Origin: an uncultured Verrucomicrobiota bacterium
GTDB taxonomy: Bacteria; Verrucomicrobiota; Verrucomicrobiia; Limisphaerales; UBA9464
Assembly: GCA_903939515.1 (NCBI GenBank)
Contig: CAJAHH010000010.1
Coordinates: 62,001-126,000 of the forward strand
Direction: 5' to 3'
Length of the DNA stretch: 64,000 bases
The notes below the pieces were generated by a model that did not search any database, was not told the DNA's origin, and saw nothing but the letters and a program-made list of their open reading frames with translations. Made by a program: the position numbers and the translations under genes. The number at the start of each line of letters is the position of its first letter. Position 1 is the stretch's first letter. Of the stretch, positions 29,402 through 42,489 are shown piece by piece.

Positions 29402-31210
29402 TCAGTTCTTGTCTCCCTGAGGAGTGAAGTCGGTCTTGGCTCCGGGAACGCTGTACTCGTAGGGGCCACGGTAGGCAACCGGCTCTTGGAGGAAGTTGCC
29501 GTGCGGCGGGGGGGTTGGTGTGGCCCACTCCAAAGTGGTGGCCTGCCAAGGATTGTCCGAGGTGACACGCTTACCAGCGAAGATACTGGAGAAGAAATTG
29601 ATAATGAAGGGGATCTGGCAAATTCCCAAACCGATGGCACTCCAGAGAATCATGTTGTTCAGCTTCAGAACGCCCGGATCGACACCCTGACCGAAGTAGG
29701 TGGTACCACCATCAGACATACGTCGGGACATGCCCTTGAAGCCCTGAATGAACATCGGGGCGAACACGCAGTTCATGAAGAAAAGAGAACCAGCCCAGTG
29801 AAGCTTGCCCAAGAGTTCATTCATGTGCCGCCCCGTAATCTTGGGGAACCAGTAATAAATGCCCGCAAATACCGCGAACATGGTGCCCGGGGCCACTACG
29901 TAATGGAAATGACCGATCACGTAGTACGAATCGTGCAAGAAGATGTCGGAGGCGTTGAAACCCAGAGGCAGGCCAGTGAGTCCACCAATGCCGAACATGG
30001 GCAGGAAGGAGAGCGCGAAGAGCGAGGCAGAGTTGAAGCGAATGGAACCACCCCAGAGAGAGATGAACAACGCCGTGAGGATGATCACCGAGGGGATCGA
30101 AATCATCATCGTCGTGGTTTGGAAGAAGGTGGCCACTTTCGTGCCCATGCCGGTCAGGTACATGTGGTGAGCCCACACGATGAAGGAGAGGAATCCGATG
30201 CTCATGGCCGCATAAACCATGCTCTTGTAACCCCAGAGCGGCTTGCGAATGTTGTTGGAGATCACCTCGGCGACGATGCCGATGGCCGGCAGAATCAAAA
30301 CGTACACCTCGGGGTGACCCAAGAACCAGAACAAGTGCTGCCAGAGCAACGGGCTACCGCCACCTGAAACCGGCAGCGGGCTTCCACTGACCACGAGGCC
30401 TTGGGGCAGGAAGAACGAGCTACCAAAAAGGTTGTCCATCAACTGCATCAGGCCGGCGGCTTCCAGCGGGGGGAAGGCCAAGAGCAGCAAGAAACCGGTT
30501 ACGAACTGAGCCCACACGAAGAAGGGCATCCGCATCCAGCTCATGCCGCGGCAGCGCAACTGGATGATGGTGGCGATGAAGTTCACCGAACCCAGCAAGG
30601 ACGAAGTGATGAGCAAAACCATACCCATCAGCCAGTAGGTCTGACCATCAAAGCGGTTGGCTAGGTCGGTCACCGAGGCGAGCGGGGAATAGGAAGTCCA
30701 ACCGGATCGGGCGGCACCACCCGGGGTGAAAAAACTGGCAAACATCACCACTCCACCCAGGAAGTAGCAGTGAAAGCTCGCCATGTTCAACCGAGGAAAA
30801 GCCATATCAGGCGCACCGATTTGCAGCGGGGTGACATAGTTGCCGAAGGCCCCGAAGAGCACCGGAACGATGGCCAAGAACACCATGATGGTGCCGTGCA
30901 TCGCACCAAAGGAATTGTAGAGGTCACCGCCGACGATCCCGCCCTTGGCCATGTCTTCACCCAAGACCGTCTCTAACAAAGGCCCCACCAACGGGACCGC
31001 CCTGCCTGGATACGCCAACTGAAAGCGCATCACCAGCATCAGGAAGAAGCCGAAAAGCAGGAACAGCAGCGACGACACTCCGTATTGGATGCCGATGACC
31101 TTGTGGTCGGTGCTGAAGATGTACTTGCTGAAGAAACCCGGCTCATGATGCGCGTGACCGTGCGAAGAATCGGTCGCGCTCGTGTGGGCGTGGGATGCTG
31201 TGGATTGCAT
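29402..31210 (-). CDS. coxA: Cytochrome c oxidase subunit I
   Basis: Catalytic subunit (602 aa) holding heme a and the heme a3-CuB centre. The HPEVY motif with the cross-linked His-Tyr and proton-channel Glu is intact, as are the WAHHMY CuB histidines, the APDMAFPRLN D-channel entry and the FHYVVAPGTMFA heme ligands. The N-terminus has a His-rich leader (ASHAHTSATDSSHGHAHHE). The segment after the K-channel helix reads ISIPSVIILTALFISLWGG instead of the common IPTGIKIFSW. I take the ATG at 31210; a TTG at 31225 overlapping the ctaB stop is also possible. A-family oxidase by these residues. Confidence 0.96.
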   Translation of the reverse strand: MQSTASHAHTSATDSSHGHAHHEPGFFSKYIFSTDHKVIGIQYGVSSLLFLLFGFFLMLVMRFQLAYPGRAVPLVGPLLETVLGEDMAKGGIVGGDLYNSFGAMHGTIMVFLAIVPVLFGAFGNYVTPLQIGAPDMAFPRLNMASFHCYFLGGVVMFASFFTPGGAARSGWTSYSPLASVTDLANRFDGQTYWLMGMVLLITSSLLGSVNFIATIIQLRCRGMSWMRMPFFVWAQFVTGFLLLLAFPPLEAAGLMQLMDNLFGSSFFLPQGLVVSGSPLPVSGGGSPLLWQHLFWFLGHPEVYVLILPAIGIVAEVISNNIRKPLWGYKSMVYAAMSIGFLSFIVWAHHMYLTGMGTKVATFFQTTTMMISIPSVIILTALFISLWGGSIRFNSASLFALSFLPMFGIGGLTGLPLGFNASDIFLHDSYYVIGHFHYVVAPGTMFAVFAGIYYWFPKITGRHMNELLGKLHWAGSLFFMNCVFAPMFIQGFKGMSRRMSDGGTTYFGQGVDPGVLKLNNMILWSAIGLGICQIPFIINFFSSIFAGKRVTSDNPWQATTLEWATPTPPPHGNFLQEPVAYRGPYEYSVPGAKTDFTPQGDKN

Positions 31211-31221
31211 AGATTGGGGTA

Positions 31222-32235
31222 TCAAGCGCCGTCTCCCGGAAGACGGAATATTCGATAGGATACAAACGCGCCGGGGCGTGGTACAGAAATTGTTGAACTC
31301 CCTCGAAGTAATGAGCTCTTCGAAGACTCTTCCTTAGTTCGATCCATGACCAACGCGGCCAAGAGGATGGGAAGATAGAAAATTGAGGCAAAAAACAGCC
31401 GCCGCGCTGCCATGGCGTTCAGAAGGAGAGCAAACCGGATGGCTTGAATCAAAAACAGCCCCCCAAAGACCAGTGCCACAGAGAGATAAATCCGTCCGCT
31501 AATTCCCTGAAGGAAGGGCACAATGCTGACGAAAATCAGGGCAATCGAGTTGCGGATGGCCGATGAAGCTGAGCGACGCCCTTCGGGATCACGACCGGAT
31601 AACATCCGGAAACCCGCTTGGGAATATTCTTCACGATACAACCAGGCAATGGCCATAAAATGGGGCAATTGCCAAAAAAACAGGATCGCAAACAACGACC
31701 ACCCCCCGGCGCCGAGTTCGCCGGTTGCCGCAGTCCATCCCATCAAGGGAGGCAACGCTCCGGGAATGGCACCGACCCAAGTGTTGAGTTCGGTGATCTG
31801 CTTGAGAGGGGTGTAAACAAACACATAAATGGCCAAGGTCAGCGCCCCCAGAAACGCAGTGAGGAGATTTACCAAGAAAACCAACCACAGCAGCCCCAAA
31901 ATGGACATCACCACACCGAAGGCCAAAACGGTCAAGGGCGTGAGGATGCCAGCCGGGAGAGGCCGCGAGGCCGTGCGACGCATGCGGGCGTCTAAATCGC
32001 GCTCCCACCACTGATTCAAAGCCGAGGCGCCAGCCGCCAGTAGCGAAGTACCCACGATGGCATGGAAGCAAGCCGTCCAATCGGGTGCCTGAGCTGAACC
32101 CAGAGAAAACCCCATCCAGGTGGTCAGAACCACCATTAAGGTCAACCGGGCTTTGACCAAGTCGCTGATGACCTTCACCCACCCGCGCAGACTTTGCGTG
32201 GCAACGGTGGTTTCGATGGAAGCAGCAGCGTTCAC
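31222..32235 (-). CDS. ctaB: Heme O synthase (protoheme IX farnesyltransferase)
   Basis: UbiA-family prenyltransferase that adds farnesyl to heme B to make heme O. The aspartate-rich motif NQWWERDLDARMRRTASRPL (about residues 77-96) and the second motif region DPEGRRSASS are intact, with eight or nine membrane segments. A C-terminal tail of about 40 polar residues follows the last helix and is unusual in the family. It overlaps ctaA by 4 nt (32232-32235). With CtaA it makes heme A for the oxidase encoded next door. Confidence 0.94.
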   Translation of the reverse strand: MNAAASIETTVATQSLRGWVKVISDLVKARLTLMVVLTTWMGFSLGSAQAPDWTACFHAIVGTSLLAAGASALNQWWERDLDARMRRTASRPLPAGILTPLTVLAFGVVMSILGLLWLVFLVNLLTAFLGALTLAIYVFVYTPLKQITELNTWVGAIPGALPPLMGWTAATGELGAGGWSLFAILFFWQLPHFMAIAWLYREEYSQAGFRMLSGRDPEGRRSASSAIRNSIALIFVSIVPFLQGISGRIYLSVALVFGGLFLIQAIRFALLLNAMAARRLFFASIFYLPILLAALVMDRTKEESSKSSLLRGSSTISVPRPGAFVSYRIFRLPGDGA

Positions 32236-33470
32236 AAAGGTTGAGCTGATCGTACCGCAGATATTTTCGGAAGGACTGACCCCGGCAAGACTCTGGTTTC
32301 TTCAGCAAATCGGGACTGATTCGCTTTCACGGACCAGCAGGACCAGCAACCCACAGCCAGGGTCAACGACCCCACAGCGACGTGGGCTGTGGCGATGTCG
32401 GCGGCTCGGTCGGTGAGGACGGTAAACAATCCCAATGCGAACTGAACAGCAACCAGGCACAACCAGGCTGTTCCCAGGGTCCGCACGGGATGTCCCTGGG
32501 GCTGCTTCCTCGAGAACCCGAAGGCCATGCAAATGGCCAAGACCGCCAAGACTGCATTGATCCGATGAAACAGGTGCATGTGGATTTGAAGGGCCGTGAT
32601 GGAGTCCACCCCTTCACGTCGGCCCGCGTAACGCACCAAAGATTCGGTGTCTGTCTTGGGCCACCATTGGCCGTAAGCCAGAGGGAGATCCGGAATAGCC
32701 AGACCCGCATGCTGGTGGCGCATCCAAAGCCCAAGAATCAACTGCCCAAAAACCAGGGCCGTCGCCAAAAACACCCAGTAGGACCCTCGAAGGTCGATAG
32801 CGCGGCGAGTCCACTGTGGGTACCAACCCGAGAGGGACACGGCCAAGCAGGTGGTTAGCACGAAGAAAACTTGCCCGAGGCACCCGTGGATCATTCCAAA
32901 AACAGTGCCTCCGGTGGTGCCACCGATCGCCCAGGAATCAAGCACTACCCGGAGACCACCCAAACTCCCCTGGATTTGGACCAGCCAAAATGCGGCCCAG
33001 GCCAAGCGGACCGCCAAACGGGAAGCCGGGGCGTTTTTCCAACCGACCGCCGCGGCCGCCAAAACCACACCGCCAATTCCCAACAGAAAATGAGCCTCAC
33101 CCTTCAAGAGTGGGTTGACCCGCATCAGGATGACTCCCGCCAAAACTTCTGCAAACCCCACTCGGGCCAGGATTTTCCGAGAAACACTCCCCGCGGTCCA
33201 CCGGGCCAAAAACACCACCAAAAGCCCCACTCCAGAAGCCCAAACCCGGTGGGTGTGTTCATGAAACACCCCCCCGGTCATCCACATGGAGATGGGCAAC
33301 GCAAACATGCTGTAGCCGAAACTGGTGGGCCAATCTGGAACCGACATGCCCACCCCCTTGCTGGTCACCAATCCACCAATGCACACCAATCCGAGCGTCG
33401 TCAAAGCCACCAAGGCGGCGAAGCGAAACAACCAGACAGAATGAAGGTTTTGAGGGGTGGATGAGCTCAT
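32232..33470 (-). CDS. ctaA: Heme A synthase (CtaA/COX15)
   Basis: Membrane enzyme that oxidises heme O to heme A. The 412-aa length and eight membrane helices fit the two-repeat COX15 form. Conserved His contexts are visible: GGVFHEHTHRVWAS in the first half, and LWMRHQHAGLAIPD and HMHLFHRINAVLAV in the second. FRFAALVALTTLGLVCIGGLVTSKGVGMSVPDWP gives the standard N-terminal helix (cited in part: GGLVTSKGVGMSVPDWP). A strong GC hairpin (33478-33502) ends 8 nt before its ATG and there is no Shine-Dalgarno sequence between them, so its translation may be low or controlled. Confidence 0.94.
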   Translation of the reverse strand: MSSSTPQNLHSVWLFRFAALVALTTLGLVCIGGLVTSKGVGMSVPDWPTSFGYSMFALPISMWMTGGVFHEHTHRVWASGVGLLVVFLARWTAGSVSRKILARVGFAEVLAGVILMRVNPLLKGEAHFLLGIGGVVLAAAAVGWKNAPASRLAVRLAWAAFWLVQIQGSLGGLRVVLDSWAIGGTTGGTVFGMIHGCLGQVFFVLTTCLAVSLSGWYPQWTRRAIDLRGSYWVFLATALVFGQLILGLWMRHQHAGLAIPDLPLAYGQWWPKTDTESLVRYAGRREGVDSITALQIHMHLFHRINAVLAVLAICMAFGFSRKQPQGHPVRTLGTAWLCLVAVQFALGLFTVLTDRAADIATAHVAVGSLTLAVGCWSCWSVKANQSRFAEETRVLPGSVLPKISAVRSAQPL

Positions 33471-33539: not shown

Positions 33540-34244
33540 TTACTTAACAGCCAATTCCAGATTCAGCGTGGCCTTGCCACCCTTCACCTCGACCTCACCG
33601 CTCACCAGGCCGGACTTGAGGTGATTGGCCTCAACGGTGTATTTACCATCGGGCAAATCACCGCTGATGACGAAGTGGCCATCCTTGTCGGACACCGCAA
33701 AGAACGGGTGATCGAACACGTGGACATACCCGGACATCCAAGGATGAACGTTGCAAATCAGCTTGACGGCCAATTCGGCCTTGTCGAACACGCGGGGATT
33801 CACCTGACCCTGAGTGGCCTGAGCAAAGTTGAAGCCCTTGTTCACTTTGGCTTGGCAGTTCACGTTGTGCATGAACGTGTCGGAATTCTTGATGTCCACG
33901 GTCTGTCCGACCATGGCCACGGTGACCACCGGCTCATAAACGCAGCCGACTTGATCAATCAACGGCTTGCTCGCCGGAGCGGTGTAGGTCTTGCCGGCCG
34001 GAAGACCCGCCTTGATGTAGACAGCCACATTGGCCAATCCGTGATCGGCACCCACGACGTAGGTGCGGGTCATAACCGGCTTGGTGTGCAAAGCACCGCA
34101 CAGCCTGTCACCCTTGATCGGGGTGATTTCCCGAGCAGGGGGAACTTCGCCGTTAATCTTGATTTTACCGGTGATCTCGCCTGCGAGAGCGCTGGAAGCT
34201 GCAACCGCCGCCACCATCGAGACAACCTTCAGTGTGTTTTTCAT
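33540..34244 (-). CDS. Exported cupredoxin-like protein with carboxypeptidase-regulatory-like domain
   Basis: Secreted protein of 234 aa with a signal peptide cleaved after about SALA (residue 21). Residues 25-175 look like a plastocyanin-type cupredoxin: His126 (DTFMHNVNC), then CNVHPWM giving Cys164, His167 and Met170, the full type 1 copper ligand set. Residues 178-234 form a carboxypeptidase-regulatory-like beta sandwich (DKDGHFVISGDLPDGKYTVE). AGGA 8 nt before ATG 34244 supports the start. As first gene of the oxidase locus it may be the electron donor to CuA in place of, or beside, cytochrome c; that role is inference. Confidence 0.82.
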   Translation of the reverse strand: MKNTLKVVSMVAAVAASSALAGEITGKIKINGEVPPAREITPIKGDRLCGALHTKPVMTRTYVVGADHGLANVAVYIKAGLPAGKTYTAPASKPLIDQVGCVYEPVVTVAMVGQTVDIKNSDTFMHNVNCQAKVNKGFNFAQATQGQVNPRVFDKAELAVKLICNVHPWMSGYVHVFDHPFFAVSDKDGHFVISGDLPDGKYTVEANHLKSGLVSGEVEVKGGKATLNLELAVK

Positions 34245-37451: not shown

Positions 37452-37541
37452 GTTCCATCTCACCGTGGTAATCCTCCAGAAGATCCATGTAGCAGCGATG
37501 ACAATGGGGCATGATAAAGCAAAATATTACCCATTGAACCA

Positions 37542-37964
37542 ATGAACCTCGCGATGCCGATGAGCCGGATCGATCGACAACTAAGAATTCTCGTGGTGGA
37601 CGACTTCCCGGAAATGCGCAACGGGTTGCTCCGAACTCTGTCTGCCCTCGGATTTAAATCAGTTACGGCGGCCGAAGAAGCCCTCGCTGCGATTCGGTTG
37701 ATCGAGGAGTGTCACGAATTTGATTTGATTATCTCCGACCTCAACATGCCTCAGATGTCGGGTCTTGAACTGCTCAACTACGTGCGGAATGTCGACCGAC
37801 TGGCCTCGATTCCGTTCCTCATGATCACGGCCGAGGCGACCAAGGCCAACGTGTTGGCAGCAGCTAAAGCCGGGGTGACCGATTTCATCGTCAAACCGTT
37901 CTCGGTCGAGCAATTGGTGCTGAAGATCGAAGGACTGCACCGTCGGGAGAACCTGACCCATTGA
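37542..37964 (+). CDS. Stand-alone receiver (CheY-like response regulator)
   Basis: A 140-aa single receiver domain. The acidic pair is VVDDFPEMR, the phospho-acceptor is Asp66 (DLIISDLNMPQMSGLEL), and the switch Thr and Lys are in MITAE and FIVKPFS. It has no output domain, so it must act by protein contact, like CheY, or as a phosphate shuttle. Several ATGs lie near the N-terminus (37542, 37554 and 37560) and none has a clear ribosome-binding site. It leads the four-gene signalling cluster, 109 nt before the kinase. Confidence 0.93.
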   Translation: MNLAMPMSRIDRQLRILVVDDFPEMRNGLLRTLSALGFKSVTAAEEALAAIRLIEECHEFDLIISDLNMPQMSGLELLNYVRNVDRLASIPFLMITAEATKANVLAAAKAGVTDFIVKPFSVEQLVLKIEGLHRRENLTH

Positions 37965-38073
37965 TCCCACCGGCGTCCCCCGCACCATCGCCGGAAAACC
38001 CCACCGACCAAGCTCTTTGGTCGCTTCTCTGCGGTCCACCGGCAACGGCGGATACCGATTACCGGCCACCCCC

Positions 38074-39774
38074 ATGAAGGCACTCGTCGACACGATCCGG
38101 AAGTCTCCGGCGCTCACGCTGATCGTCCGAACGGTGATCATCGCGCTCGCGTATTCCCTCTCGGGGGAAATCGGTCTCTGGTCCGCAAAGGAGCGCGAGC
38201 TCTGGCCTACCTTGTGGTTCCCGTCAGCCGTTGGGCTCACCGCCGTCACATTCTGGGGGCCGAGCGCTGCGATCGGGATCGGGCTAGGTGCGCTGTTGAT
38301 GCGATTGTTCAAGGATCCGTCCCTGCTGTCCCTGCTGAACAGCGTCATCCCCAACGTCGTTGAAGCCTACATCGGCAGCCTATTGCTACGTAAACATTTC
38401 GGCCTTCCCCAACGACGGCTCACGACCCAGGAGGTTCCCGAACTGGTCCTCTCACTGGCGATGATCACCAACATCGGCGCGATTATCGGCACTGCCACGC
38501 AGGTATTCACTGGGAGTTTCCCTAGTTCCGAAATCGTACGAGTCTGGTGGAGCTGGTGGTCGGGCAATGCCGCAGCCGTGATCCTGATTGCACCGATCTG
38601 GCTTTGGGGCCGGGAAGTCGAACTCCAGGGCGAGGGCAGTCCCGTGAACCGGCGGATCGTCTTATTTGTCGGAGTCGCGATGGGTCTGGCCCTCAGTTTC
38701 CTGCCGATGCCCAAAGGGCCTACGGAGATGTGGCGCCCAACCCTCGCCTTCTTACCCTACCTGCTCATCCATTGGGTGAGCCTTTCGCTGGGCGCGCGTT
38801 CGGTCGCCTTCGGCGGGGCCATCGTGGGCGTAGTCATCTCGCTGGCGACCAACCTGGGCCATGGCCCCTTTGCGACCACCGACCCGCTGGCTTCTTACGA
38901 CGCGGCCTGCCTCTTTAATCTGGTCACCGGCACTTCCACCCTGTGGCTGTCCACCCTGGCCGCAGAGCGCAACCTCGTTGCCCGGGCCTTGGCGATGCAA
39001 CAAAAGCAACTCGAGGCGACAGTTCTATCCCGGACACGGGACCTGGAGGAACGAACCAACGAGTTGCAGTCGTTTTCTTACGCGGTTTCACACGACCTCC
39101 GGGCCCCGCTCCGCGGGATCTCCGGATGGATCTTTGCCCTCGAGGAAGACTGCGGTGCCCAGCTGGACGCCACCGGCCAGCGGCACCTTGAGCGTATCCG
39201 GAACGAGGCTCAGCGCATGGGAATGCTCATCGAGGGTCTGCTCTCGCTGTCGCGGATCAGTGCAACGGAGATCCGGGTCAAACCCATTGATATATCCGGC
39301 CTCGGAACGGAGATCCTGAACCGGCTCGCCGAGGCCCATCCAGATCGGATCGTCCGGACCGAAGTCCATCCTGGAATCATAGTCGATGGGGACGAGGTGC
39401 TCTGCGAGATCGCCCTCACGAACATCTTGGAAAACGCCTGGAAGTTCACCGCCAAATGCCCCGAAGCCCGCATCGGGATCGAGCCTGTGGAGAGCCCATG
39501 CGGCCGGGGTTTCCGTGTCCACGACAACGGCGCTGGATTCGCCCCGTCCAACCGAGACCGTCTGTTCATTCCTTTCCAACGGTTCCATCGCGCCTCCGAA
39601 TTTCCAGGCACGGGCATCGGTCTGGCCACGGTCCATCGCATTGCCCGGCGCCACGGCGGTTCCCTAGAGGTGGAATCCACACCGGGCGTGGGCACCATTG
39701 TCACCATGATGTTGATTTTTCCGAAAACCGAAGCACGGTCCGAAATGAGTATTAAAGTATACAATGCACTCTAA
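38074..39774 (+). CDS. MASE1 membrane histidine kinase
   Basis: Sensor kinase of 566 aa. An N-terminal MASE1-type membrane domain with about eight helices (residues 12-300; WFPSAVGLTAVTFWGPSAA is typical) is followed by a short coiled coil, a HisKA domain with the phospho-acceptor His340 (SYAVSHDLRAPLRGISG), and an ATPase domain with N box NILENAWKFTA, G1 DNGAGF, F box FQRFHRASEFPGTG and G2 GTGIGLATVHRI. This kinase core is the type found with phytochromes and Rcp1 receivers, and an Rcp1-like receiver overlaps its 3' end by 11 nt. The signal sensed by MASE1 is unknown. Confidence 0.92.
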   Translation: MKALVDTIRKSPALTLIVRTVIIALAYSLSGEIGLWSAKERELWPTLWFPSAVGLTAVTFWGPSAAIGIGLGALLMRLFKDPSLLSLLNSVIPNVVEAYIGSLLLRKHFGLPQRRLTTQEVPELVLSLAMITNIGAIIGTATQVFTGSFPSSEIVRVWWSWWSGNAAAVILIAPIWLWGREVELQGEGSPVNRRIVLFVGVAMGLALSFLPMPKGPTEMWRPTLAFLPYLLIHWVSLSLGARSVAFGGAIVGVVISLATNLGHGPFATTDPLASYDAACLFNLVTGTSTLWLSTLAAERNLVARALAMQQKQLEATVLSRTRDLEERTNELQSFSYAVSHDLRAPLRGISGWIFALEEDCGAQLDATGQRHLERIRNEAQRMGMLIEGLLSLSRISATEIRVKPIDISGLGTEILNRLAEAHPDRIVRTEVHPGIIVDGDEVLCEIALTNILENAWKFTAKCPEARIGIEPVESPCGRGFRVHDNGAGFAPSNRDRLFIPFQRFHRASEFPGTGIGLATVHRIARRHGGSLEVESTPGVGTIVTMMLIFPKTEARSEMSIKVYNAL

Positions 39775-40207
39775 CAGCGGACCCATCATTCTCGTTGAGG
39801 ATAACGAGTCAGACGCCGAAGTCGCACGGCGCGCCATTGAGCGGAGCAGCCCAACTCGCACGCTGGTGGTGGTCGGGGACGGCCTGTCTGCGGCGGAGAT
39901 GCTTCTTGGCACCGAAGGGCAGGCGCCCTGCCCCCGTCCGAGGCTCATGATGATCGATATTAACCTTCCGGGCCTCGACGGCATCGAACTGCTCACCCGC
40001 ATCCGCAGCAATCCCGATCTCCGCGGCGTCGCGGTGGTCATTGTTAGTTCCTCGGCCGAGGAGCGAGACATCCGGAAGGCCTACGACCGGGGCTGCAACA
40101 GCTACGTCACTAAGCCGCTCGACATCCGCGCGCTCCAATCCCTGTACGCCAGCGTCGTGAATTACTGGACACAGACCAACATCGGCTACCCCAAGCCCGT
40201 CGGATGA
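39764..40207 (+). CDS. Rcp1-like response regulator
   Basis: A 147-aa receiver of the Rcp1 type known as partner of cyanobacterial phytochrome kinases. The acidic residues are ILVEDNESDAEVA, the acceptor is Asp65 (LMMIDINLPGLDGIELL), and the Lys is in SYVTKPLD. The long insertion between helix 2 and strand 3 (LLGTEGQAPCPRPR) is typical of Rcp1. It overlaps the MASE1 kinase by 11 nt and the hybrid kinase by 4 nt, so it is presumably the direct phosphate acceptor of the kinase upstream. Confidence 0.93.
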   Translation: MHSNSGPIILVEDNESDAEVARRAIERSSPTRTLVVVGDGLSAAEMLLGTEGQAPCPRPRLMMIDINLPGLDGIELLTRIRSNPDLRGVAVVIVSSSAEERDIRKAYDRGCNSYVTKPLDIRALQSLYASVVNYWTQTNIGYPKPVG

Positions 40208-42489
40208 ATACCCCGGTCAGGCTGCTCATTGTCGAGGACAACCCGAGCGACATCGACTTGCTGCTGCGGCAGCTCAGGCGCTCGGACTTAGAGTTCGCAT
40301 CGGTTGTATCCGATGACATCGGTGAGATTCACCAACTCATCTCGGAACAGGCGTTCGACGCGATCCTGACCGACCACCAGTTGGCGGGGTTCACCGCGTC
40401 CGAGGTGTTGGCGGAGATTGCTGGCAGGCAGCTCGACATCCCCGTCCTGGTCGTCTCGGGAGCCGTAGGCGAGGACCGTGCGGCCGCCTTGATGCGGGAA
40501 GGGGCCGTTGACTTCGTCCGAAAGGAAAATCTCTCGCGCCTAGTGCCGGCCCTGCAAAGAGAACTCCGGGAAGCCGAGGGACGTCGCCATCTGCGCGAAG
40601 CCACGGAGCGCCGCACCCGTAGCGAGTCGTTGCTCCGCTACGTGGTCGAGCTTTCTGGTGACAGCTTCTGGGAGTGGGACCTAGCGACGGGTGGATTGGC
40701 TTGGAGCGATACCTTCCTCGCCCTCTGTGGCGACGGAAGCTCGCCTTCGTCGAAGATCAACGTCTGGCGGGACCGTCTTCACCCGGAGGACCGCGAGGAC
40801 GTGGTGGTCGGCATCGATGCGGCCATCGCCTCCAGCGGAGGCCACTGGTCGGGGACATTTCGCTTCAAACGCGGCGATGGCACGTGGGCGCTCCTGATGA
40901 CCCGGTGTTTCGTTGTTCGGGAGGAGGGTCACGCGGTGCGCGTCATCGGGGCGATGTCGGACATCTCCGAGCGCCAGTCACTGATCGAACGCCAGCGCGT
41001 CTTCACAGCACTGGTCGACCAGGCAGCCGAGTCCATCGGGGTGATCGACCCCGAGGAGGGACGATTCCTCGAGTTCAACACCACGGCGCACCGATCCCTC
41101 GGCTACACTCAGGAAGAGTTCGCCTCCAAAACCGTCTTCGATATCGACTGCCAGCACAGCCAAGAGGAGATCACCAGGCTACTGCAGCAACTTCGACAAA
41201 CTGAGAAGCGTGACCTGGTCACCCGGCACCGGGCGAAGGACGGTGCACTGCGCGAGGTCCGCCTCCATTCGCGTCCCATCCGCATCCAGGGGCGCACCTA
41301 CCTCGCGGCCGTCTGGCAAGATGTGACCGAGCGCTTGGCCATTGAGGCAGAACTCCGCCAGGCGCAGAAAATGGATATTATGGGCCAAATGGCCGGAGGG
41401 GTGGCCCATGACTTCAACAACATCCTCGCCGTGATGCGGCTGAACCTCGACCTGGCCCAGATGAACCCGCCGACCCCCTCGGAGTTGACTGAATTGGTCG
41501 GATTGCTGTCTGGGATGGTGGATCGTGCCTCAAGCCTCACGCAACGCCTTCTCCACATCAGCCGCAAAGACAGCTACAAGGTCGAGGAATACCTCCTGGA
41601 CGAAGCACTGGACGATCTCATCAAGGTTAGCCAGCGAATCCTTGGGGACCGAATTGAAATCCGTCGCATTCGGACCGCCTCGAAGCTCCTAGTGAATGCC
41701 GATCGATCCATCATCGATCAGGTGTTCATGAACCTCTTCATCAACGCCCGGGATGCGATGCCCGACGGCGGTGTCCTGACGGTCGAGACACGCATTACGG
41801 AGTCCGCGCTGCAGGCTTCGGGCACCACTTCTCGGCAGGGTCGCCGGTTTACCCAAATCCGCATCAGCGACACCGGCATCGGCATGTCAAAGGAAACGCT
41901 GGCTCGGATCCAGGAACCGTTCTTCACCACCAAAGCTCCCGGCAAAGGCACAGGTCTGGGCCTCAGTACCGCACGCCGCTACCTCAATGAGCATGGAGGC
42001 TGGATGTCCGTCGAGAGCGAACTAGGCGAGGGAACAACCTTCACTGCCCACCTCCCTCTGGCACCTTTGGCGGCCGCGGTTTCCAACCCCGATCCGACCG
42101 CGGGCGCCCCCCTCCCGCCCCATGTGCTTCTCGTCATGGAAGATGCCCCACTGCAACTGCTCACCCGGAAAGTCCTCGAGAAGGCGGGGTGCCGCGTCCA
42201 TCTGTGCACGGACGCGTCCGAGGCCATGAAGGTCGTTGAATCGGTATCCCCAAGCATCGAACTGGCCATTGTCCCCGCGAGCATGCCCTCCCCTGGGTCT
42301 GAGGCCGGTCTTGCCCATCGCATCAGGGAATTGCTCCCCGCGATCTGCATGATCCTCACCCGGTTGCCCGGGGATGCTCCGGCTCCCCTGCCGTCGGGCA
42401 AGGTCCGTGTGCTCGAGACACCCTTCTCGGTTGCCAGCCTAACGACCTTGGTGACGGAGTCCCTGCCCGGCCGCATCAAAGAGCACTGA
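40204..42489 (+). CDS. REC-PAS-PAS-histidine kinase with degenerate C-terminal receiver
   Basis: Soluble signalling protein of 761 aa. Domains in order: an N-terminal receiver (residues 5-120, acceptor Asp57 in AILTDHQL), two PAS domains with PAC motifs (about 145-262 and 268-385), a HisKA with His402 ([13 protein letters not shown]), an ATPase domain (about 505-625; [18 protein letters not shown]) and a C-terminal receiver-like domain (about 640-755). In that last domain the acceptor Asp is Pro691 (AIVPASMP) and the conserved Lys is Thr739 (LETPF), so it cannot take phosphate in the normal way. There are no membrane segments or DNA-binding domain. Its first receiver is the likely input from the MASE1 kinase. 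Confidence 0.92.

Follow-up and report, generated by a model that had tools for sequence, protein, structure and literature searches.

A probable branched two-kinase cascade with an Rcp1-like receiver, and a CheY-like receiver beside it, in an uncultured member of the Verrucomicrobiota

In Agrobacterium tumefaciens the kinase BphP1 (Agp1) is described as having two parallel phosphorylation targets, the Rcp1-like AgR and the receiver domain of a second kinase, ExsG, which itself phosphorylates ExsF and, by the same account, not AgR (PMC3899027). The first kinase, the Rcp1-like receiver and the receiver-first kinase belong to one operon, with the separate receiver adjoining (PMC3899027, PMC1552090). 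In Ramlibacter tataouinensis a kinase, a CheY-type receiver and an atypical hybrid kinase share one putative operon, hmuO-bphP1-RtBRR-RtBHK, and loss of RtBHK or of either BphP is reported to give similar phenotypes, in rod division (PMC6848086). In Leptospira the kinase LvrA is described as phosphorylating another kinase, LvrB, at its N-terminal receiver (PMC5863495, PMC13269768). According to these accounts, receiver phosphorylation is inhibitory to the kinase in ExsG and activating in LvrB. Here we consider a locus of similar layout at positions 37542-42489, forward strand, of a 64,000-nucleotide stretch (the window) of contig CAJAHH010000010.1 from an uncultured Verrucomicrobiota bacterium (genome G000). 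Its four genes encode proteins that we term P1 to P4. We estimate a probability of about two in three that P2, P3 and P4 form a branched two-kinase cascade, in which P4 passes the signal on to another receiver, P1 being the likeliest.

Open reading frames and Pfam matches agree with the four genes, the domains and the overlaps that an initial annotation had assigned. P1 (37542..37964) is a lone CheY-type receiver of 140 residues, in which the alignment shows the full catalytic set of five residues (D, D, D, T and K). P2 (38017..39774), with 585 residues when counted from a TTG codon, is a histidine kinase composed of a MASE1 membrane sensor domain (38212..38961; 46.9 bits against a Pfam cut-off of 29.8), a HisKA domain for dimerization and histidine phosphotransfer (DHp; 39067..39264) and HATPase_c. 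Its H-box, FSYAVSHDLRAPLRG, is presumably of the phytochrome-kinase type. The start of P2 is uncertain, the TTG at 38017 not being preserved in one congener (G001) and an ATG at 38074 not in another (G017), and the gap between genes 1 and 2 is therefore 52 or 109 nt. P3 (39764..40207) is a 147-residue receiver with a C-terminal extension, and its gene overlaps those of P2 by 11 nt (39764-39774) and P4 by 4 nt (40204-40207). P4 (40204..42489; 761 residues) has the order REC-PAS_3-PAS_9-HisKA-HATPase_c and ends in a predicted pseudoreceiver (42121..42468); the N-terminal receiver (40225..40548) has its catalytic residues intact and the HisKA domain (41380..41574) is of the VAHDFNN type. No HTH, GGDEF, EAL or histidine phosphotransfer (HPt) domain exceeds its Pfam cut-off in P1-P4; an HPTransfase match located within the kinase of P4 is sub-threshold (13.2 bits against 22.9).

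The best PDB matches of P3 are 5ic5, which ranks first and which we take to be from R. tataouinensis, 1i3c and 1jlk (Rcp1), 5te9 and 1k68 (RcpA), with an E value of 2e-23 for 1i3c. Trp 135 is invariant across 18 aligned homologues. On its matches to Rcp1/RcpA structures and its intact phosphorylation site, P3 is assigned to the Rcp1 family, and the Rcp1-type output by protein contact that had been proposed for it is plausible. The best NCBIfam match of P4 is CckA (221 bits); P4 also matches the AtoS model (172 bits), and its kinase core is closest in the PDB to LvrB (8vc9).

Judged by its domains, the core of P2, P3 and P4 is a variant, not a member, of the BphP1-AgR-ExsG type, distinguished by MASE1, HisKA, added PAS domains and a pseudoreceiver. 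With that type it shares a kinase, an Rcp1-like receiver and a receiver-first kinase, encoded in this order on one strand. P2 carries MASE1 in place of the phytochrome sensor of BphP1, which the first kinase of R. tataouinensis is also described as having, and a Pfam scan gave no GAF or PHY match in P2. In ExsG, as described, a receiver immediately precedes an HWE kinase and there is no PAS domain or pseudoreceiver, whereas P4 combines both of these with a CckA/LvrB-like HisKA-HATPase_c kinase. ExsF is reported to be encoded downstream on the other strand; gene 1 is upstream of gene 2 on the same strand. Unlike the core, LvrA is described as cytoplasmic and fused to a REC-kinase, with no separate Rcp1. 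P4 shares with the LvrB class an N-terminal receiver with an intact site before DHp and the catalytic ATP-binding (CA) domain. Two PAS domains lie between them in P4, unlike LvrB, which is described as REC-DHp-CA without PAS or pseudoreceiver and as having a putative anti-sigma protein, LvrC, as its target.

In the proposed cascade P2 would autophosphorylate and then phosphorylate both P3 and the N-terminal receiver of P4. P3 would act via protein contact, and the phospho-state of the P4 receiver would turn P4's own kinase either on or off. The kinase of P4 would then phosphorylate a further receiver. This acceptor must be another protein because the C-terminal receiver of P4 is dead, although in most of the homologous triples examined the counterpart of P4 carries such a receiver; in this lineage the adjacent P1 would be the likeliest choice.

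A survey of gene neighbourhoods covered 60 Rcp1-like loci, chosen by going down the P3 match list and passing over core orthologues and rows similar to an earlier pick; 57 lie outside the genus and three are paralogous loci in congeners (G004, G006 and G012). A kinase upstream together with a REC-kinase downstream was found at 16 of the 60, an upstream kinase alone at 21, a downstream REC-kinase alone at two and neither at 21. From the same list 60 further loci yielded two triples, while 71 named loci (the nine nearest excluded) gave four triples at three loci. Thirteen more came from 20 plasmid loci, which had been picked by eye for diversity out of 60 listed, before their neighbours were known. 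The centre gene was required to match P3 at E 1e-12 in the first survey and at E 1e-4 in the later sets. For plasmid loci a downstream gene was also taken if it was receiver-first and at least 300 residues long, because HWE kinases escape the profile.

Co-variation was analysed in 32 kinase/Rcp1/REC-kinase triples, divided into a discovery set (n = 15; 14 plus the window) and a held-out set (n = 17; 15 from other phyla). L178 and L180, near-identical to L169, were excluded from the former and the near-duplicates L327 and L333 from the latter. For each triple Rcp1 was compared with the second kinase's N-terminal receiver (N-REC), the score being their similarity over the 16 residues that follow the conserved Asp opening helix α1; scores were row- and column-centred and compared with permuted pairings (20,000 permutations, minimum p = 5e-5). 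For α1 the p-value was 5e-5 in both sets, against 0.31 (discovery) and 0.32 (held-out) for the rest of the domain. The corresponding values for Rcp1 and α1 of the C-terminal receiver (C-REC) were 0.79 (n = 13, the dead domain of the window included) and 0.93 (n = 8). In sliding windows over all 32 triples a peak appeared only within P3 residues 9-32 (z = 7.0, 7.5 and 4.2; next best 2.1), and after thinning to a maximum of 60% identity (n = 17) α1 remained at p = 5e-5 with the rest at 0.13. For 14 of the 32 Rcp1s the own N-REC ranks first or second. By these alignments Rcp1 and the N-REC of the second kinase co-vary only in α1, the kinase-contact helix, and the pattern looks like a general rule for the gene set in several phyla (L161-L220, L254-L333, L077-L147 and the window).

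The dimerization helices of the kinases were compared with the receivers through distance-matrix correlations (13 triples in the discovery set; 17, 12 or 8 in the held-out set). The first kinase pairs with both Rcp1 (0.80 discovery, 0.76 held-out) and N-REC (0.81 and 0.77), against 0.55 and 0.38 for C-REC. The DHp of the second kinase tracks C-REC (0.83 and 0.79) more than Rcp1 (0.52 and 0.21) or its own N-REC (0.46 and 0.18). The natural reading is that in such triples the first kinase would phosphorylate both Rcp1 and N-REC, and the second kinase its C-terminal receiver. If so, the first kinase would signal to two receivers side by side, while the second would work with a receiver that is either its own C-terminal domain or a separate protein. 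Such a wiring rule can be tested and would apply to a gene set that is widespread; it agrees with one biochemical case, that of Agrobacterium as reported (PMC3899027), and a statement of it for the class was not found in listings of open-licence papers.

The initial annotation had the signal pass from P2 through P3 to the receiver of P4 and onward, with P1 as a second branch or sink, and the gene order and overlaps do favour such a serial phosphorelay. To our knowledge, however, Asp-to-Asp transfer between receivers requires a His carrier, and we know of no direct receiver-to-receiver transfer. The sole carrier of this kind is the DHp of P4, whose counterparts, as just described, track C-REC over Rcp1. 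Of the parts of a multistep relay, P4 lacks an HPt domain over the cut-off and its C-terminal receiver lacks the Asp. We rejected the serial relay through Rcp1 on the co-variation pattern in the 32 triples together with the Agrobacterium precedent, in which phosphorylation by BphP1 is reported to be parallel and ExsG not to phosphorylate AgR (PMC3899027). A relay of this type appears very improbable to us, and the wiring most likely branched.

Eleven receivers from eight loci, a subset of those in the same genome, were ranked by α1 as targets of P2. The N-REC of P4 came first, P3 second and P1 seventh, and phosphorylation by P2 of both P3 and the P4 receiver in this organism is well supported as far as sequence comparison goes. 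P1 might instead serve as a phosphate sink or a second target of P2 and not as a target of P4, lying as it does directly upstream of P2 in all three P1-bearing genomes of the genus. Its seventh place does not support this role, which we consider distinctly unlikely; what stands of the earlier suggestion is that P1 can be a separate branch. The best α1 match to P4 among the 11 receivers is at L006 1408-2541, on contig C35 of the same genome. This protein has 378 residues and two receiver stretches, with no further Pfam domain.

No Pfam REC match is called at residues 640-755 of P4. AlphaFold2 gave, as the best of five models of this C-terminal domain, a receiver-like fold with helix 4 missing (predicted local distance difference test, pLDDT, 85.4; predicted template modelling score, pTM, 0.81), two of the five models reaching just 67-68. 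For the best model Foldseek ranks a human protein of Rossmann fold first (28tm, E 2.3e-7), and the next matches are mostly receivers (2rdm, E 7.7e-7). The phospho-Asp position is occupied by P ('LAIVPASM') and the Lys is also missing. Going by the model, the domain is a pseudoreceiver (PsR), with a receiver fold that lacks the phospho-Asp, a class described in PMC12632262. The Asp is absent also from P4 of four congeners (G001, G004, G006 and G012) and its loss therefore predates this species, whereas all 14 homologous second kinases that have the domain keep it (three congeneric paralogues, the others from outside the genus). In G003 and G018 P4 ends after 631 codons, before the pseudoreceiver, with the kinase core intact and a decayed remnant downstream.

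Our sample of the genus comprised 18 genomes besides G000, 19 together. P3 orthologues (59-95% identity) occur in eight of the 18, beside P2 and P4 orthologues in unchanged order. The core is complete in four of these (G001, G003, G004 and G018, with P4 shortened in G003 and G018 as noted) and cut by a contig end in the other four, within P2 (G006 and G012), P3 (G017) or P4 (G013). In the remaining ten congeners nothing matched P2 at a threshold of E 1e-40 or P4 at one of E 1e-50. P1 orthologues (84-85%) are present in two of the 18, G001 and G017, directly upstream of P2. Four core-bearing congeners (G003, G018, G004 and G013) have the site without P1, and in G006 and G012 the contig end within P2 leaves the site uncovered; a P1 orthologue was not found elsewhere in these six. 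The four-gene set is therefore seen in three of the nine core-bearing genomes of the genus, G000 included. It is also seen on one named contig, L068, from the metagenome-assembled genome (MAG) Spartobacteria AMD-G4, where all four genes are 99.6-100% identical to those of the window. AMD-G4 is described as a small MAG and, in its paper, as having no flagellar genes; mis-binning is possible.

The three-gene core is stable and the adjacent receiver varies between relatives. The initial annotation had named separate occurrence of the genes in relatives as grounds for refuting its four-gene unit; this applies to gene 1, without which the core occurs, and not to genes 2-4. An intergenic alignment with relatives is compatible both with gain and with loss of P1.

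In G004 (L051 4170-5630) and G013 (L052 3978-5435) a divergent gene just upstream of P2 encodes an NtrC-family regulator (REC-Sigma54_activat-HTH_8), so that the lack of a DNA-binding output, true of the window, is not shared by these siblings. The usual partner of P4 may be such a regulator encoded elsewhere, and P4 matches the model of AtoS, which has an NtrC-type partner, AtoC; the CckA score is higher. No orthologue of the regulator was found in the window or in the few loci of G000 examined (nearest L008, 34%), the whole genome not having been searched. We regard a partner of this kind as possible, if somewhat unlikely.

P1 is the likeliest substitute acceptor for the dead C-terminal receiver of P4, a role suggested by its position, by the loss of that receiver's phospho-site, by the ExsG-ExsF precedent and by a trend among stand-alone receivers. 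Such a receiver lies within 600 nt of six of ten triples without a C-terminal receiver, against two of 21 with one (Fisher p = 0.006), or five of nine against one of 20 (p = 0.005) when two overlapping L078 triples are removed. For four of the 31 triples in this count the flanking sequence falls short of 600 nt at one end or at both, and L319 was scored as having a C-terminal receiver from two REC matches, its kinase domain being undetected. Azospirillum lipoferum and A. ramasamyi have a fourth, stand-alone receiver downstream on the same strand. P1 might also be an unrelated neighbour that receives its phosphate from another kinase or from acetyl phosphate. It is missing at the site in G003 and G018, where the window's flanking genes are in place, and was not found in G004-type genomes; the gap of 52-109 nt separates it from P2, and it has its own upstream region. 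The weak promoter-like site there (37498..37525, forward strand; nine of 12 positions match) is at chance level, a scan of the region for promoters and terminators having given one promoter-like site against 1.2 expected. With the same position in all three genomes that have P1, and with the trend towards nearby stand-alone receivers, an unrelated neighbour seems to us unlikely.

Several points weigh against the branched cascade with P1 as its acceptor. The permutation p-values do not fully account for relatedness, and when thinning to a maximum of 50% identity leaves n = 9, the rest-of-domain signal rises too (p = 0.015, against 0.0006 for α1). The P3/P4 receiver pair of the window is 12th of 32 in the α1 ranking, and the evidence that the first kinase pairs with both receivers in the manner of BphP1, found for the class of 32 triples, is weaker for the window alone. 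In the discovery set the second kinase still correlates with Rcp1 and N-REC, and the ranking of P2 targets partly reflects that P3 and the P4 receiver belong to the Rcp1/N-REC class. As a target of P4, P1 is fourth of the 11 receivers; its α1 class is common to most ordinary receivers, and six controls lean to the C-REC class more. Absences in the congeners were scored in incomplete MAGs. Moreover, G003 and G018 retain the core without P1, P4 having stopped before the pseudoreceiver, and P1 is therefore not needed there.

The NCBIfam CheY model (NF007901) gives 109.5 bits for P1 and 106.7 for its two orthologues, while the other receivers listed from the 19 genomes, those of congeners with chemotaxis genes included, reach at most 86.1. 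By this model P1 is the most CheY-like receiver among those listed. Its score is below the equivalog cut-off of 189 bits, which only one of 14 control genomes exceeds; against CheY in the PDB it scores 97.9 bits. P1 is like chemotaxis CheY in its closest sequence matches and its five catalytic residues, and unlike it in falling under that cut-off, in lying outside a che cluster and in belonging to a genome without a CheW or chemoreceptor match. Outside, the closest matches found (45-48%) are to CheY genes that adjoin cheZ on three plasmids of Acetobacteraceae. Among the matches listed, non-orthologous rows reach at most 41% in 59 relatives and at most 40% in 288 genomes of the phylum. Mainly on this similarity, P1 may have been acquired from outside the phylum. 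A tree, from which L155, L240 and L002 were left out for short or missing matches, places P1 among nine proteobacterial CheY proteins or receivers with weak support, the ultrafast bootstrap being 41, or 69 without the badly aligned row ve_G010. With the four alphaproteobacterial ones alone it is 25 or 34. A phage search with P1 gave 12 records and nothing informative.

A bold reading is that P1, probably acquired from outside the phylum and wired to the MASE1/Rcp1/REC-kinase cascade in place of the dead C-terminal receiver, lets an ordinary membrane kinase steer the flagellar switch of a flagellated bacterium that has no CheW-type proteins or chemoreceptors, the neighbouring receiver place being exchangeable and CheY-type, NtrC-type or empty according to lineage. 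It would mean flagellar control without a chemotaxis kinase. We put it forward tentatively and hold it to be doubtful. G000 gave no CheW match (four of 13 congeneric genomes in the panel have one), CheA not having been searched on its own, and no match to methyl-accepting chemotaxis proteins (MCP; four of 19 have one). CheA carries a CheW-like domain. FliM is present in 15 of the 19 genomes, and in two copies in each of the three P1-bearing genomes, G000 among them. G000 has two flagellar clusters (L223 and L224; contigs C8 and C72) with two different FliM/FliN pairs. One contains export-ATPase, FlgD, hook/rod, FliL, FliM and FliN-type genes, and the other export-ATPase, hook/rod, FliL, FliM, FliN, FliP, FliR, FlhB and FlhA-type genes. 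FliM-1 begins MADQAGSMGDVLSQSEVERLL, a predicted site that we take to resemble the CheY-binding peptide of E. coli, which the start of FliM-2 does not. At the eight FliM-contact sites of CheY named in PMC8225110, P1 agrees with E. coli-type CheY at five, as counted from alignment rows.

Against a role at the motor, some other single receivers of Verrucomicrobiota equal or surpass P1 on this face (five sites in G187, five in G144 and six in G293; the CheY-like receiver of G006 has one), a comparison that is not decisive. The AMD-G4 paper reports flagellar genes in just two other, larger MAGs (PMC5673642); AMD-G4 is about 80% complete and its contig L068 may have been misplaced. Of the congeners, twelve carry FliM but gave no MCP match; nine of the twelve also have no P1, so that flagella there do without it. 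Single-domain receivers of P1's kind may also not bind FliM, as the account of McvR suggests (PMC8995066).

The four genes in the window are preceded by rph, pgm and prmA and followed by a TonB receptor, names read off the open reading frames, the plug domain of the receptor being the one part scanned. Further upstream, COX1, UbiA and CtaA-type genes in a row (29402-33470, reverse strand) form a haem-copper oxidase cluster. Adjoining it, 33540-34244 on the same strand encodes a 234-residue protein that has no Pfam match at E 1e-4; with its signal-like start and its His/Cys/Met-rich motifs HNVNC and CNVHPWM, it is perhaps a cupredoxin.

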